Assembly: GCA_001873635.1 (NCBI GenBank)
Contig: MNZK01000033.1
Location: 1-47,374, forward strand
Direction of reading: 5' to 3'
From: Porphyromonadaceae bacterium CG2_30_38_12
GTDB taxonomy: Bacteria > Bacteroidota > Bacteroidia > Bacteroidales > Paludibacteraceae
Length of the DNA stretch: 47,374 bases
This document shows positions 20,964-28,861 of this stretch, piece by piece. The translations under genes and the position numbers were made by a program. Numbering within the stretch: position 1 is the first letter of the stretch; every line of letters starts with the position of its first letter. The notes under the pieces are model-generated. The model searched no databases. It saw only the letters and a list, made by a program, of their open reading frames with translations, and had not been told where the DNA came from.

Positions 20964-21836
20964 ATGAATAAGAAACTTTTAGAAACAGTAAAGCAATTAT
21001 CAGATATTGAGGATTTTAAAGATGTTTGCCACCAGCAAAATGAGTTTACATCCATGCCTTCAATAGACGTTTTAGGCGAAATAGTTACCTTAACACGCTC
21101 CATCCTCTTTCCCGGATATTATGGAAATGCTGCTGTAAATTCTAAAAGTATGCTTTATCACATCGGCGTTAACGTAGATAAATTGCTGGTGCTACTTTCT
21201 ACGCAAATTAAGGCGGGATTAGTTTTCGAAAAAAACACACAAGATTTACCCTGTAACGATTTTGATACCTGTTCCCGAGAAATAGCACGCAAATTTATCA
21301 TGCAATTACCTATTATTCGTCAGAAGTTGCATACCGATGTGGTAGCAGCTTTCAATGGAGATCCTGCTGCCAAAAGTTTCGGTGAAGTCATTTTTTGTTA
21401 TCCAGGCTTGCGAGCCATTACCAATTACCGCATTGCCCATGCACTTTTAAAGCTCGAAGTGCCGCTTATTCCTCGTATTATCAGCGAAATAGCACATTCT
21501 GAAACGGGTATTGACATTCATCCGGGAGCAACCATAGGTGAGTATTTTACCATAGATCACGGCACAGGTGTGGTAATTGGAGAAACAGCCATATTAGGGA
21601 ATAATGTAAAAATGTATCAAGGCGTAACTTTGGGAGCCAAAAGTTTTGAACTCGATGTAAACGGCAATCCCATTAAGGGCATTCAAAGGCATCCTCGTAT
21701 TGGAAACAATGTGATAATCTATTCTAATTCGACTATTTTAGGAACTATCATGGTGGGTGATGGCGCTATCATAGGTGGAAATATATGGGTAGATAAAGAT
21801 GTTGCTCCTGGTTCGAAAATCGTGCAAAGGTATTAA
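20964..21836 (+). CDS. cysE: Serine O-acetyltransferase
   Basis: DIHPGATIGEYFTIDHGTGVVIGETAILGNNVKMYQGVTLGAKS hexapeptide repeat region. Confidence 0.92.
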   Translation: MNKKLLETVKQLSDIEDFKDVCHQQNEFTSMPSIDVLGEIVTLTRSILFPGYYGNAAVNSKSMLYHIGVNVDKLLVLLSTQIKAGLVFEKNTQDLPCNDFDTCSREIARKFIMQLPIIRQKLHTDVVAAFNGDPAAKSFGEVIFCYPGLRAITNYRIAHALLKLEVPLIPRIISEIAHSETGIDIHPGATIGEYFTIDHGTGVVIGETAILGNNVKMYQGVTLGAKSFELDVNGNPIKGIQRHPRIGNNVIIYSNSTILGTIMVGDGAIIGGNIWVDKDVAPGSKIVQRY

Positions 21837-21889: not shown

Positions 21890-22174
21890 ATGAATACAAA
21901 GGAATTAATTTCAAATTTGAGTGTACGATGTGGGCTTTCCAAAACAGATGCCGAGCAATTGTTAGAGACAACGATCCTCACTTTGAGTGAACTGCTTAAA
22001 GCGGGCAAAAGTGTTAGCATTTTGGGCTTTGGAAATTTAGAAGTACGCAAAAAAGAAGAAAGACTTTCGGTGCATCCTGCCACTCAGGTTCGTACGCTGA
22101 TTCCACCCAAATTAGTTGTTAATTTCAAGCAAAGCACAAAATTAAAAGACAAATTAAAATATGTAAAATTATGA
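21890..22174 (+). CDS. HU/IHF-family DNA-binding protein
   Basis: 94 aa; MNTKELISNLSVRCGLSKTDAEQLLETTILTLSELLKAGKSVSILGFGNLEVRKKEERLSVHPATQ. Confidence 0.88.
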   Translation: MNTKELISNLSVRCGLSKTDAEQLLETTILTLSELLKAGKSVSILGFGNLEVRKKEERLSVHPATQVRTLIPPKLVVNFKQSTKLKDKLKYVKL

Positions 22175-23766
22175 GCAAAGATAAAGTTTCATCGCACGAA
22201 ATGGTTGAAATGGTTGCCGCTAAATTGTCGGTAAACAAAAGCGTAGCCGAAGAATTTCTCAAGTCGCTATTTGCTGAAATTGAACAGAATTTATTAAATG
22301 GTGAACCTGTAAAAATAAAAGATTTAGGTACTTTCAAATTGCAATGGAATGAGCCTCGTAAAAGCGTGAATGTACAAACGGGTGAAGTTTTCACTATAGA
22401 AGGATACAATAAAGTGGTTTTCATTCCAGAGGCTGATTTAAAACAACAAGTAAATGAGCCATTTGCACATTTAGAAGCCATTACATTGGAACAAAACACG
22501 ATTCCAGTAACCGAAATTGAACCTGAAAATCCCGAAAAATTAGACTCGTTGCGTAACATAACCGAGCAAGCCACGGAAATAAAAGATATTTTGTTGGAAA
22601 TTAAAGCATTATCACGACAACATGAAAACAGCCAAAGCGAGCATACGACAATCGAAACGAACAACGAAATAGAAATTGAATTGCCAAAACCTGATACAGA
22701 ACTGGAATCGGAACCAGCAATAGAACCAAATACAGATACAAATCTCATTACTGAACAAACTCAAGCCCCCCTACAGATTCCCGACTACGATTTAATTCTG
22801 TTAGACGAAGAAGCGGACGTGCAAGGTGAAACAACAGAAAAACAGGTAACAATATTGGCAGAAAAGGAACCGGAGTTTGCAACTCAATTAGTGCCTGAGC
22901 CAACCGAGCCAACTTCTATCGAGCCTGAAATAGAGGATATACCTGAGACTGCCCCTGTAATGGAACCACAGATGGAACCACAGCTGGAGTATGAAAAATA
23001 TAAAGAGCCTGAAATTGAGCCTAAAATTGAAAATCAACCAATTACAGAACCTGATTATGATTCAAATACGAATTCCATCAATGACAATTCTTCTAACACG
23101 GGGCATCCTATGTTAGAAAACAAAAAAACAAAGAAACATAAAAAAGGAAAATTCTGGCTTGTATTATTTATAATTATTATCGTTTTAAGCGGTGCATGGT
23201 CGGCGGTATATTTTTCATCATCTTGTGTACAGTGTTGGTTTCAATACACGGTAATGTCCGAAGAAAACAAGCAGCGTGTTTCTGAAATTGAATTACAAGT
23301 TGGTAGCTGGTTTCAAAACATTTTCAGTAAGGAAAAGCCTGCTGCAAAAATCGTTGCACCCAAAACAACTGCATTGGCTCCAGTAGTAAAAGTTGCCAAT
23401 GACTCGATTGCAGCCGACAGCACAACAACACCCAATAGCGAAAATGCACAAACGGTTATTAACGAAAAAGCTGATGCGCTGCAAAAAATATTTGATAAAC
23501 CAAGAGAATACACCAAATTTATTGGTTCGGAACAAGTAAAGGAAGGTACTCGCTTGATGAATATCTCACTTAAATACTACAAGCACAAAGATTTCTGGAT
23601 TTATATATACGAAGCTAACGGCGAAACTATTGTACATCCCGACAGATTGAAGGCGGGTTCAATCATTCAAATTCCACAGGTGGATGCTCGATTGATAAAC
23701 CCACGCGACCCTCGTTGTATAAAATACGCCAAAGAGCTCCAAAAAATTTACATCGGAAAAGAATAA
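22171..23766 (+). CDS. HU-domain / transmembrane / LysM-like fusion protein
   Basis: N-terminal HU fold (VKIKDLGTFKLQWNEPRKSVNVQTGE), long Glu/Pro-rich linker, KTKKHKKGKFW then TM LVLFIIIIVLSGAWSAVYF, CVQC, and C-terminal VKEGTRLMNISLKYYKHKDFWIYIYEANGETIVHPDRLKAGSIIQIP. ATGA overlap with upstream HU. Confidence 0.85.
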   Translation: MSKDKVSSHEMVEMVAAKLSVNKSVAEEFLKSLFAEIEQNLLNGEPVKIKDLGTFKLQWNEPRKSVNVQTGEVFTIEGYNKVVFIPEADLKQQVNEPFAHLEAITLEQNTIPVTEIEPENPEKLDSLRNITEQATEIKDILLEIKALSRQHENSQSEHTTIETNNEIEIELPKPDTELESEPAIEPNTDTNLITEQTQAPLQIPDYDLILLDEEADVQGETTEKQVTILAEKEPEFATQLVPEPTEPTSIEPEIEDIPETAPVMEPQMEPQLEYEKYKEPEIEPKIENQPITEPDYDSNTNSINDNSSNTGHPMLENKKTKKHKKGKFWLVLFIIIIVLSGAWSAVYFSSSCVQCWFQYTVMSEENKQRVSEIELQVGSWFQNIFSKEKPAAKIVAPKTTALAPVVKVANDSIAADSTTTPNSENAQTVINEKADALQKIFDKPREYTKFIGSEQVKEGTRLMNISLKYYKHKDFWIYIYEANGETIVHPDRLKAGSIIQIPQVDARLINPRDPRCIKYAKELQKIYIGKE

Positions 23767-23785
23767 ACACACAGAATTACCGCTG

Positions 23786-23821
23786 AAAGTCCTGTTTTTT
23801 TATAACTCAGGACTTTTTTTT
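23786..23821 (+). terminator. Rho-independent terminator after HU-LysM gene
   Basis: AAGTCCTG...CAGGACTTTTTTTT. Confidence 0.85.
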
Positions 23822-23982
23822 GTGTTCAGTTATCTTAAAAAAAGACCTAAAATGCCTTGTAATAAGGGACTATGTATTAATAATCTAAATTCAGGTTAAT
23901 AGTTATTAAATCAGAATTTTAACACATCATTTAATTGTATTTTTGCTAACCAAATTAAAAATAGAAAATTAAAATACTCACT

Positions 23983-24978
23983 ATGGATCAAATGGTTGAT
24001 ATTAGAGAACTTAACGAACGCATTGAAAAGCAAAGCGCTTTTGTTGATGCCTTGGTTATGGGTATGGACAAAGTGATAGTTGGTCAGAAACATCTGATTG
24101 AATCGCTGCTTATTGGCTTATTGTCCGACGGTCATATTTTACTGGAGGGCGTACCCGGATTGGCTAAAACATTAGCTATCAAAACACTCTCCGATTTAAT
24201 AAAATGTGATTTCAGTCGTATTCAGTTCACCCCCGATTTGTTGCCAGCCGATGTGGTTGGAACCATGATTTACAGTCAGAAAAAAGAAGAATTTAGCATT
24301 AAAAAAGGACCAATTTTTTCAAATTTGGTGCTTGCCGATGAAATAAACCGTGCACCTGCAAAAGTACAAAGTGCACTGCTGGAAGCTATGCAAGAGCGTC
24401 AAGTTACTATTGGCGAAAACACCTACAAATTAGAAGAACCATTTTTGGTAATGGCTACTCAAAATCCGATAGAACAAGAAGGAACTTATCCACTTCCAGA
24501 AGCTCAGGTGGACCGTTTTATGCTCAAGGTAGTTATTAAATATCCCAAAAAAGAGGAAGAGAAGTTGATAATACGACAAAATCTGCTCAAGGAAAAACCT
24601 CACGTTGCTCCCATTTTAACACCTAAAGACATTATTGCAGCGCGTGATATAGTTAGACAAGTGTATATCGACGAAAAAATTGAGCGTTACATTGTTGATA
24701 TCGTTTTTGCTACACGCTTTCCGCAAGATTATGGTTTGGATAGCTTAACCGAAATGATTTCGTTTGGTGCCTCGCCACGTGCTTCTATCAATTTAGCGCT
24801 GGCATCTCGCGCTTATGCTTTTATCAAACGCCGCGGTTACGTTATTCCCGAAGATATTCGTGCAGTATGCTACGATGTGTTGCGCCACCGTATCGGATTG
24901 AGTTACGAGGCTGAGGCAAACAACATGACATCGGACGAAATAATTACTGAAATTTTGAACACCGTTGAAGTACCGTAA
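23983..24978 (+). CDS. MoxR-family AAA+ ATPase
   Basis: EGVPGLAKT Walker A, LADEINRAPAKVQSALLEAMQERQVT, ATQNPIEQEGTYPLPEAQVDRFM. Confidence 0.96.
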   Translation: MDQMVDIRELNERIEKQSAFVDALVMGMDKVIVGQKHLIESLLIGLLSDGHILLEGVPGLAKTLAIKTLSDLIKCDFSRIQFTPDLLPADVVGTMIYSQKKEEFSIKKGPIFSNLVLADEINRAPAKVQSALLEAMQERQVTIGENTYKLEEPFLVMATQNPIEQEGTYPLPEAQVDRFMLKVVIKYPKKEEEKLIIRQNLLKEKPHVAPILTPKDIIAARDIVRQVYIDEKIERYIVDIVFATRFPQDYGLDSLTEMISFGASPRASINLALASRAYAFIKRRGYVIPEDIRAVCYDVLRHRIGLSYEAEANNMTSDEIITEILNTVEVP

Positions 24979-24986
24979 TTTTCAAA

Positions 24987-25853
24987 GTGGAAACAAGTGA
25001 AATTTTAAAAAAAGTTCGCAAGATTGAGATTAAATCACGCGGTTTATCCAAAAATATCTTTGCGGGTGAATACCATTCGGCATTCAAGGGAAGAGGTATG
25101 ACTTTTGCCGAAGTGCGTGAATATCAATACGGCGACGATATCCGCTCTATCGACTGGAATGTTACTGCTCGCTTTAATCATCCCTACATCAAAGTGTTTG
25201 AAGAGGAACGCGAACTCACCGTAGTGTTGCTGGTAGATGTTTCGGGCAGCAAAGACTTTGGTACAGTAAAGCAAATGAAGCGTGATATTTTCACTGAAAT
25301 GGCTGCTACAATTGCTTTTTCAACCATTCAGAACAACGACAAAATTGGGGTAATATTTTTCTCCGATAAGATAGAAAAATTTATCCCTCCGAAGAAAGGC
25401 AAAAAGCATGTGCTCCATATTATTCGCGAGCTTATTGACTTTAAGCCACAAAGCAACTTAACCGATATTGGTGCTGCTCTACGCTATTTCACCAATGCAA
25501 TTAAAAAAAGCTCTACGGCTTTCATTATTTCCGATTTTTTTGATAGTAATTTTGAAAAAGAACTTACAATTGCCAATCGAAAGCACGACGTTGTAGCTTT
25601 GCAGGTTTACGACATACGTGAAACTGAGTTGCCCGATGTAGGACTTGTGAAACTAAAAGATGCTGAAACTGGTGAGCGCATCTGGGTTGATACCTCGGAT
25701 AAGCGCCTCCGCAAATCGTACAAACACAGCTGGGGCGAAAACCAACTTGCCTTGCAAAAAACTTTCACAAAATCAGGTGTCGATTTTGTGTCAATGACTA
25801 CTTCGGACGATTATGTGCGATCTCTGATGAAACTATTCAAAATGCGTGCATAG
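24987..25853 (+). CDS. DUF58 domain protein (vWA-like), GTG start
   Basis: HSAFKGRGMTFAEVREYQYGDDIRSIDWNVTARF; LLVDVSGSKDFG. Confidence 0.93.
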   Translation: METSEILKKVRKIEIKSRGLSKNIFAGEYHSAFKGRGMTFAEVREYQYGDDIRSIDWNVTARFNHPYIKVFEEERELTVVLLVDVSGSKDFGTVKQMKRDIFTEMAATIAFSTIQNNDKIGVIFFSDKIEKFIPPKKGKKHVLHIIRELIDFKPQSNLTDIGAALRYFTNAIKKSSTAFIISDFFDSNFEKELTIANRKHDVVALQVYDIRETELPDVGLVKLKDAETGERIWVDTSDKRLRKSYKHSWGENQLALQKTFTKSGVDFVSMTTSDDYVRSLMKLFKMRA

Positions 25854-25871
25854 CCTCATGAACTATAATTT

Positions 25872-26825
25872 ATGACAAAGATTCGAGTTTCTATCATATT
25901 TTTTTTGTTTGCAATAGGCTTACAAGCTTATTCGCAATCAGTTACAGTGAATGCTATATTGGATTCGACTGCAATTCGCATTGGTAGTCAGGCTACGCTG
26001 AAATTTGAAATTAGTCAGAAGTCAGGGCAAAAAGTCATCGCTCCGAACTTTTCAGATTCCATTCCTGGTGGACTGGAAATTGTGGAAAATTTGAAAACGG
26101 ACACGACTAAAACAGACCAAGGGCTTTTGTTAATTTCAAAAAAAATAGTGCTAACAGGCTTTACTGATTCGCTTCACTACATACCACCTTTCCCATTTGT
26201 AGTTGATGGTGATACTATTTGGACTAAATCGTTGTCGCTTAAGGTGGTGCAGCCATTCAAAATTGATACTGCCTCCAACCAAATTGCCGACATAAAGCCA
26301 GTTATGGAACCTCCATTCAATTGGAAAGGACTGCTGCGAATTTTAGCACTAATACTGTTAGTTATCGATTTTGGGTTGCTTATTTTTTATATTTTCAAAA
26401 TGTTTTATCGTAAAAAAGATAAAGCCGAAATAAAAAATTTAGAACCCGAATTACCTGCCCACATCATTGCGCTTGCTAAATTGGACAGACTAAAAAAAGA
26501 AAAATCGTGGCAACAGAATCGGACCAAACAATTTCACACGGAACTTGCCGATGTGGTTCGTGAATACTGCGAGCGAACATTTTTAATACCTTGTTTGGAA
26601 ATGACTTCGGACGAAATAATTTCTAATTTGAACCATTTGCGTATAGAGAATAAAACAGCCTATAATGCTTTGAACCAGATACTTCGATTAGCCGATTTGG
26701 TGAAATTTGCCAAATGGGATGCCATGCCCGATGAAAACGAATTGAGTTTATCAAATGCTTATTTGTTTGTGAACGAAACGAAAATTGAGATGATAGCCGA
26801 AGTTAAAGAAACTGACAAAAAATGA
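25872..26825 (+). CDS. Bat-operon membrane protein (BatD-like N-terminal, unnamed)
   Basis: Signal peptide, beta-rich periplasmic region, TM helix, cytoplasmic tail; lies between DUF58 and batA; ATGA overlap with batA. Confidence 0.7.
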   Translation: MTKIRVSIIFFLFAIGLQAYSQSVTVNAILDSTAIRIGSQATLKFEISQKSGQKVIAPNFSDSIPGGLEIVENLKTDTTKTDQGLLLISKKIVLTGFTDSLHYIPPFPFVVDGDTIWTKSLSLKVVQPFKIDTASNQIADIKPVMEPPFNWKGLLRILALILLVIDFGLLIFYIFKMFYRKKDKAEIKNLEPELPAHIIALAKLDRLKKEKSWQQNRTKQFHTELADVVREYCERTFLIPCLEMTSDEIISNLNHLRIENKTAYNALNQILRLADLVKFAKWDAMPDENELSLSNAYLFVNETKIEMIAEVKETDKK

Positions 26826-27805
26826 CGTTTAACAATCCCGAATACTTATTTCTTCTTTTACTGCTAATACCAATGATTTATTGGTACTTAAAAGAAATGC
26901 ACAAGTCGGATGCGAGCTTGCAAATATCCTCTCATCGCAATTTGAAGCAGTTTAGCAAAAGCAATAAAGTAAAATTGCTCCATCTGCCTTTTGTATTCCG
27001 TACCTTAGCACTGATTGCACTAATTTTTGCCATTGCGCGTCCGCAAGCTTCCAACTCATGGCGCACCCAAAATACCGAAGGCATTGACATTATGCTTGCT
27101 TTAGACATTTCGGGAACCATGATGGCAGAAGATTTGAAACCCAATCGTTTGGAAGCATCGAAAGATGTAGCTACCGAATTTATTCTTTCACGCCCAAATG
27201 ATAACATCGGTTTGGTAGTTTTCTCGGGCGAAAGTTTTACGCAATGCCCACTCACCACCGACCATGCCGTACTTGTCAATCTGTTTAAAGGCGTTAAGTA
27301 TGGTATGATTGAAGATGGCACTGCCATAGGGCTTGGACTTGCAAATGCCATTAATCGAATTAAAGAAAGCAAAACCAAATCGAAAGTAATTATTTTACTC
27401 ACCGACGGATCCAACAATCGGGGCGACATTGCTCCGATAACAGCAGCCGAAATTGCCAAAACATTTGGTATCCGTGTATATGCCATTGGCGTTGGTTCGT
27501 ATGGAATGGTCAACATACCCGTTCAGACGCCCATGGGCATGCAATATCAACAAATGGAATCGGAATTTGACGAAAAATCCTTACAGGAAATAGCGTCTAT
27601 GACGGGTGGTAATTATTTTAGAGCAACCAACAACAGTAAATTACGTAGCATTTACAAAGAAATTGACCAATTAGAAAAAACAAAAATTAGTGTAAGAGAA
27701 TATAGTAAAAAGGACGAGCAATTTTATCTATTTGCCTTGTTGGCATTTTTATTTGCGCTCTCCGAAGTGTTGCTACGAGTTACTGTTTTAAAAAAAATAC
27801 CTTGA
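26822..27805 (+). CDS. batA: Aerotolerance protein BatA (vWA domain)
   Basis: N-terminal TMs, MIDAS ALDISGTMMAEDLKPNR, LLTDGSNNRGD, C-terminal TM. Confidence 0.9.
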   Translation: MTFNNPEYLFLLLLLIPMIYWYLKEMHKSDASLQISSHRNLKQFSKSNKVKLLHLPFVFRTLALIALIFAIARPQASNSWRTQNTEGIDIMLALDISGTMMAEDLKPNRLEASKDVATEFILSRPNDNIGLVVFSGESFTQCPLTTDHAVLVNLFKGVKYGMIEDGTAIGLGLANAINRIKESKTKSKVIILLTDGSNNRGDIAPITAAEIAKTFGIRVYAIGVGSYGMVNIPVQTPMGMQYQQMESEFDEKSLQEIASMTGGNYFRATNNSKLRSIYKEIDQLEKTKISVREYSKKDEQFYLFALLAFLFALSEVLLRVTVLKKIP

Positions 27806-27817
27806 TAATTTAGCGTT

Positions 27818-28861
27818 ATGTTTCGATTTGCACATCCCGAATACTTATTCTTGTTACTAACAATTCCTGTATTGATAGCTCTTTTTGTGTATTCACAAAT
27901 CAGGCGTCGTCAAAAAATAAAACTTTTTGGGAATCCAGTTTTACTTGCCGAGCTCATGCCGTATGTTTCTTTTATTCGTCCACAAGTAAAGTTTTATATT
28001 CAACTGACAGCCATTATATTACTAATCTTAGTGTTGGCTCAGCCGCAGTTTGGCACCAAAATGGAAAAAGAGAAGCGAAAAGGAATTGAGGTCATGATTG
28101 CGTTAGACGTATCAAACTCTATGTTAGCACAAGACATTGCTCCGAATCGTTTAGAAAAATCAAAGCAGATACTTTCTAAATTGGTGGATAATATGACCGA
28201 TGATAAGGTTGGCTTAGTAGTTTTTGCAGGCGATGCTTACACACAGCTTCCTATTACCGTAGATTATGTATCGGCGAAAATGTTTTTGAACACTATAAGT
28301 CCTAAACTTATACCGCGCCAAGGCACAGCCATTGGAAGCGCCATTGACCTATGTATCAAATCTTTCGGCGAAAAATCGACAGCAAGCCGTGCTATCATTG
28401 TGATTACCGATGGTGAAAACCATGAAGATGATGCTTTGGGAGCTGCCCAATTAGCACAAGAAAATGGTATCGTGTTACATGTAGTGGGTATGGGAAAAAC
28501 AGAAGGAGCGCCAATACCGGTTGAAGGCACCATGAGTTTTTGGAAAGACAAAGATGGTAATGTGGTAGTGTCGAAACTCAACGAAGAGATGTGCAAAAAC
28601 ATTGCCGCAGCAGGAAAAGGAACTTATGTGAGAGCCGATAATTCCAGTGCTGCCTATCGCGTTATAAATAATGAATTAGACAAAATGGCGAAAGCTGAAA
28701 TTAAAACGCAAGTTTTTTCGGACTACAACGAGCAGTTTCAATCTTTTGCCCTATTGGCATTGATGCTCCTTATTATAGACAGTTTTATTTTTGACCGACA
28801 AAACAAGCGATTTAGCAAATGGAAAATATTCAATCTGAAAGAAAAAATGATTGGAAAATGA
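27818..28861 (+). CDS. batB: Aerotolerance protein BatB (vWA domain)
   Basis: ALDVSNSMLAQDIAPNRLEKSK, VITDGENHEDDA; follows batA. Confidence 0.9.
   Translation: MFRFAHPEYLFLLLTIPVLIALFVYSQIRRRQKIKLFGNPVLLAELMPYVSFIRPQVKFYIQLTAIILLILVLAQPQFGTKMEKEKRKGIEVMIALDVSNSMLAQDIAPNRLEKSKQILSKLVDNMTDDKVGLVVFAGDAYTQLPITVDYVSAKMFLNTISPKLIPRQGTAIGSAIDLCIKSFGEKSTASRAIIVITDGENHEDDALGAAQLAQENGIVLHVVGMGKTEGAPIPVEGTMSFWKDKDGNVVVSKLNEEMCKNIAAAGKGTYVRADNSSAAYRVINNELDKMAKAEIKTQVFSDYNEQFQSFALLALMLLIIDSFIFDRQNKRFSKWKIFNLKEKMIGK

Follow-up and report, generated by a model that had tools for sequence, protein, structure and literature searches.

Does a small HU protein, encoded together with a second HU protein that crosses the membrane and ends in a LysM domain, tie the chromosome of a Bacteroidota bacterium to its cell wall? 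The question is raised by two genes on a 47,374-nucleotide stretch of DNA from Porphyromonadaceae bacterium CG2_30_38_12 (contig MNZK01000033.1, positions 1 to 47,374), referred to here as the window. An earlier note on this DNA had described a 94-residue HU reading frame overlapping, by the bases ATGA, a 531-residue frame, and had proposed that the second protein may be a chromosome-to-wall tether. Both frames and their overlap were confirmed; we call the proteins HU1 and HU2. The features of the locus, all on the forward strand, are as follows.

21890..22174, + strand: HU1, a 94-residue stand-alone HU/IHF-type protein with a basic arm and a conserved arm proline
22171..23766, + strand: HU2, 531 residues, HU domain – acidic linker – transmembrane helix – LysM domain
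22171..22174, + strand: ATGA, where the HU1 stop overlaps the HU2 start (read from the sequence)
22195..22455, + strand: HU domain of HU2, residues 9–95
22462..23115, + strand: HU2 linker, about residues 98–315, Glu/Pro-rich and acidic, predicted to be mostly unstructured and cytoplasmic
23122..23151, + strand: HU2 basic patch KKTKKHKKGK, residues 318–327, just N-terminal of the transmembrane helix
23152..23217, + strand: single predicted transmembrane helix of HU2, residues 328–349
23224..23235, + strand: Cys352-x-x-Cys355 of HU2, lineage-specific by alignment of relatives
23518..23679, + strand: LysM domain of HU2, residues 450–503, predicted periplasmic
23710..23757, + strand: conserved C-terminal helix of HU2 past the LysM domain, residues 514–529 (alignment and models)
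23785..23817, + strand: 10-bp hairpin followed by a T run, the likely terminator of the HU1–HU2 transcript, before moxR

The layout is no product of chance: it is repeated at 84 distinct loci. The ATGA overlap suggests that translation of HU2 is coupled to that of HU1. The segment from 23766 to 23830 folds with an energy of -18.3 kcal/mol (z = -3.9); the hairpin within it is absent from the output of a simple terminator scan, which permits loops of 3–8 only. An antisense open reading frame at 22125–22748 was taken to arise incidentally from the coding strand and was set aside.

That each protein carries an HU domain is evident from profile searches: Pfam PF00216 matches HU1 with 76.9 bits (E = 1.4e-21) and HU2 with 67.8 bits (E = 1e-18), against a cut-off of 22.4, and the top match of HU1 among solved structures is the HU protein 1b8z (2.2e-15). 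The N-terminal part of HU2, which had been read as an HU/IHF-like domain, has the HU fold by structure comparison as well; in an AlphaFold2 model built from two sequences, whose overall confidence is low (mean pLDDT 38), this part matches HU/IHF crystal structures in Foldseek at 3.2e-7, with target-normalised TM-scores of up to 0.85. Both proteins fall far below the NCBIfam equivalog cut-offs for IHF and HU (best 61.6 bits for HU1 and 51.8 for HU2, against 111) and far below that of HU_rel (TIGR01201), and both marginally exceed that of HU-HIG (PF18291; 27.1 and 27.0 against 26.2), with PF00216 scoring far higher. To our knowledge the HU-HIG and HU_rel families have no transmembrane–LysM part.

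In a tree of HU domains, HU2 sequences form one clade (100/98) and HU1 sequences another (98/92), with housekeeping HUs outside both; seven rows labelled 'can' that fall within the HU1 clade are, by locus coordinates, HU1 genes of pairs. HU1 and HU2 each have a single origin, and the alignment is short (94 columns), which leaves the finer forks unsure. The DNA-binding arms of the two families contrast: those of HU1 are basic (mean net charge +4.2) and retain Pro63 in 69 of 72 sequences, whereas those of HU2 are near neutral (+0.4) and retain it in 29 of 68. In the window's copy of HU2 the net charge of the HU domain is negative and the arm, RKSVNVQTGE, has Val replacing the intercalating Pro. 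The HU2 domain is acidic, and it may make no contact with DNA.

Surveyed for conservation, as the earlier note had proposed, the pair proved to be a conserved unit that occurs in two classes. We found 84 distinct HU2-type genes (encoding 311–697 residues), 82 of them with HU1 immediately upstream, and in 75 of these 82 pairs the genes overlap by 4, 8 or 11 bases. Within the genus, all 35 other genomes searched yielded a match. Of 148 genomes sampled from the order, at least 24 carry the pair by a 24-sequence profile, a lower bound, there being three more loci with a divergent or undetected HU domain; family f48, which belongs to another class of the phylum, has it in about 30 of its 34 listed genomes (27 of these checked in detail). 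HU1–HU2 is an ancient, conserved two-gene unit. At the threshold used it is missing from most of the sampled genomes of the order, and it is therefore not universally needed.

Named species also carry the pair. In Parabacteroides distasonis (WP_008778384.1, WP_009275120.1) and Bacteroides finegoldii (WP_007758232.1, WP_022275144.1) the proteins are annotated only as 'HU family DNA-binding protein'; further examples come from Phocaeicola massiliensis and from a Prevotella, the C-terminal domain of whose HU2 is missed by the LysM profile. These records derive from a plasmid collection, and appear to be pieces of chromosome because ribosomal-protein, ftsY and rimO genes are aboard.

The distribution of neighbouring genes provides some information about what the conserved unit is. 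Most relatives in the order show, whole or in part, the arrangement ftsY – rimO – HU1 – HU2 – moxR – DUF58 – bat genes, as do the records from P. distasonis and B. finegoldii. In the window a MoxR – DUF58 – Bat-type operon lies directly downstream of the pair (23983–28861), a serine acetyltransferase-like gene lies upstream of HU1 (20964–21836), and ftsY–rimO is on another contig (G000 C117:4971-6239). The f48 genomes examined have neither usual neighbour, and the genes next to the pair are unrelated and differ from case to case; the pair, and not the operon, is therefore the conserved unit. These surroundings in another class weaken the case for either the MoxR/Bat operon or ftsY–rimO as part of the function, and the case for ftsY–rimO is weakened further by its separation from the pair in the window's genome. 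Genomes that lack HU2 have no HU gene adjoining rimO.

For HU2 the earlier note had described a Glu/Pro-rich linker, a KTKKHKKGK stretch and a transmembrane helix oriented by the positive-inside rule, and each of these elements held up. The linker (about residues 97–307) is 20% Glu and 11% Pro; in the AlphaFold2 model pLDDT is below 50 across residues 89–444, no ordered element appears between the HU domain and the transmembrane helix, and disorder is predicted for most of the linker. A single strongly hydrophobic helix is present in HU2 (Kyte-Doolittle 2.49 over residues 328–346; predicted helix 325–347), with seven Lys or Arg among the 20 residues ahead of it and none behind. The helix precedes the LysM domain in all 82 homologues, and an excess of Lys and Arg lies on its HU side in 73 of the 82 (mean 4.0 before, 1.4 after). 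The HU domain is thus predicted, from sequence, to be cytoplasmic and the LysM domain periplasmic. By our own estimate the spacer between helix and LysM (44–155 residues among HU2 homologues) is, when extended, long enough for contact with the wall. A CxxC claimed just after the helix is indeed present, as Cys352 and Cys355, but among relatives only the nearest (L035, L036, L039, L040) retain it, and this non-conservation rules it out as a functional motif.

The LysM assignment, which also stood by fold, is weak by profile in the window's copy and firmer across the family. Pfam LysM (PF01476) is silent on the window's HU2, and matches 10 of 18 relatives (best 4.2e-4). The NCBIfam LysM model PRK11198 matches residues 455–503 of the window's protein at 5e-5 (23.7 bits against a cut-off of 134) and all 24 aligned family members (best 1.6e-14), below the equivalog cut-off wherever a score was printed. 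Compared with solved LysM proteins, the HU2 family profile places Kbp (7pvc) first at 1.7e-10, with Ecp6 at 2.2e-6. Modelled alone (88 residues, pLDDT 69), the C-terminal part runs strand-helix-helix-strand, as LysM does, with one further helix at the C-terminal end; in Foldseek it is matched best by Kbp, by injection-machine proteins and by others that contain LysM (probability up to 1.00, best E 0.014).

The closest LysM to that of HU2, in both sequence and fold, is thus of the Kbp/YgaU type (PRK11198). Kbp itself consists of BON and LysM domains and is not known to have a transmembrane helix or an HU domain. The nearest relatives, the LysMs of potassium-binding Kbp and of the baseplates of phages and contractile injection machines, are not established wall binders, and the LysM subtype of HU2 does not by itself imply peptidoglycan binding. 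Two HU2 relatives have tandem LysM copies (L033:328-2046 and L055:281-1960), and the extended LysM is found outside HU2 too, in further proteins of related genomes (open frames of 558–909 residues; G001:C27:2435-2677, G008:C75:145-408 and G371:C27:7578-7877). At L103, L108 and L109, all from the order, LysM is intact but HU at the N terminus has diverged or goes undetected, possibly a series of HU decay or replacement.

The reading we favour, with a probability of roughly 0.45, is that HU1 and HU2 form a heterodimer that is anchored in the membrane by HU2, contacts DNA mainly through HU1 and has LysM as its outer contact to the wall. The two proteins would be dedicated halves of one device. 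HU2 would sit in the inner membrane, its HU domain reaching into the cytoplasm by the long acidic linker and its LysM domain lying on the periplasmic side; HU1, translated in step with it from a shared transcript, would pair with HU2's HU domain in the manner of IHF alpha and IHF beta, supplying most of the grip on DNA while HU2 serves as the membrane anchor. Such a complex would hold parts of the chromosome close to the membrane, LysM would fix it to the wall or to proteins bound there, and the resulting tether would position the nucleoid or coordinate it with growth. The strict pairing of HU1 with HU2 supports the idea of a heterodimer, and the earlier note's interpretation as a whole is borne out in part. 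Evolutionary distances of HU1 and HU2 correlate moderately when MoxR is taken into account (partial r 0.51, 25 genomes), which is suggestive only, since a shared rate or linkage could produce this value. The pair resembles the IHF alpha/beta and HU alpha/beta heterodimers in having two HU-fold chains able to form one heterodimer; unlike them, it has one chain that is membrane-anchored, with a predicted periplasmic domain.

The same topology and pairing are also what would be expected if LysM senses wall fragments or the state of the wall and HU2 alters the activity of HU1, so that the pair transmits a signal and is not a mechanical tether; nucleoid structure or transcription might then respond to envelope stress. 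The arms of HU1 and HU2 differ as those of an effector and its regulator would. However, Pfam recognises no signalling or output domain in the pair except HU, and an unstructured linker, which varies from 45 to 371 residues among HU2 homologues and offers no ordered element between HU domain and helix, is poorly suited to passing conformational signals. We consider a wall-sensing regulator unlikely.

A second alternative, also unlikely and ranked after the first, dispenses with DNA: the HU domain of HU2 would be a protein-interaction module bringing HU1, or other members of the HU family, to the membrane to serve an envelope function and not chromosome tethering. A protein-interaction role has been proposed for CCDC81-type HU domains. 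The acidity of the HU2 domain, its near-neutral arm and the loss of the intercalating proline in more than half of the family are consistent with this, as is an NEPF(A/S)H extension beyond the HU fold that is conserved in the HU2 alignment. Yet the HU2 arm keeps Arg58 in 64 of 68 sequences and Asn62 in 60 of 68, with Thr65 and Gly66 likewise conserved, which is more than a pure interaction module needs, and HU1 retains its DNA-binding arm. That HU2 acts chiefly by titrating HU1 at the membrane, thereby setting the level of free HU1, is improbable: co-translation would fix the HU1:HU2 ratio, but a titrator would need no conserved periplasmic LysM.

Whether a membrane-anchored, heterodimeric HU pair would be new depends on how it compares with known proteins. 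The general plan, HU joined to a peptidoglycan-binding-type domain, is already known from the HU-CCDC81_bac – SPOR proteins of Bacteroidota (PF18174, PF18175, PF05036), for which a role in chromosome partition has reportedly been predicted. Like HU2, they have an N-terminal HU-superfamily part and a C-terminal peptidoglycan-binding-type domain; unlike the pair, they have two tandem, divergent HU domains, SPOR in place of LysM, and separate Pfam families. We know of no HU1-type partner for them. HU2 was rejected as a member of this group: PF18174 is absent, PF18175 scores 14.1 bits against a cut-off of 35, and Pfam finds no SPOR match. The window's genome also encodes an HU-CCDC81_bac_1/2 tandem protein (G000 contig C51:26477-26692; L205:1330-2265), which represents the phylum's other HU-to-wall type; this protein matches PF18174 (1e-15), PF18175 (3.4e-15) and, just below the cut-off, a C-terminal SPOR (0.0012). 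PF18175 matches occur in almost every sampled genome of the order, pair-bearing ones and the window's included, and no exclusive alternation of the pair with the CCDC81 system was seen.

A search of a limited literature collection returned no paper describing an HU – transmembrane – LysM architecture; Burroughs et al. 2017 (Cell Cycle 16:1093; PMC5499826), the reference for the HU-CCDC81_bac – SPOR proteins, whose title names chromosome partitioning, might mention HU-LysM proteins. The pair is real and apparently undescribed, and it departs from the CCDC81-SPOR proteins in the type of HU, the wall domain, the dedicated partner HU1 and the distribution. That this dedicated heterodimeric pair constitutes a direct linkage of chromosome, inner membrane and cell wall in Bacteroidota, distinct from the CCDC81-SPOR proteins and unrecognised behind the annotation 'HU family DNA-binding protein', is a proposal we make tentatively, with the odds somewhat against it. 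For most bacteria it is an open question by what means chromosome and envelope are connected, and the layout of the pair would bring DNA, the inner membrane and the wall together in a single complex. Since the pair occurs in gut Bacteroidales, a group with workable genetics, the question is directly testable there.
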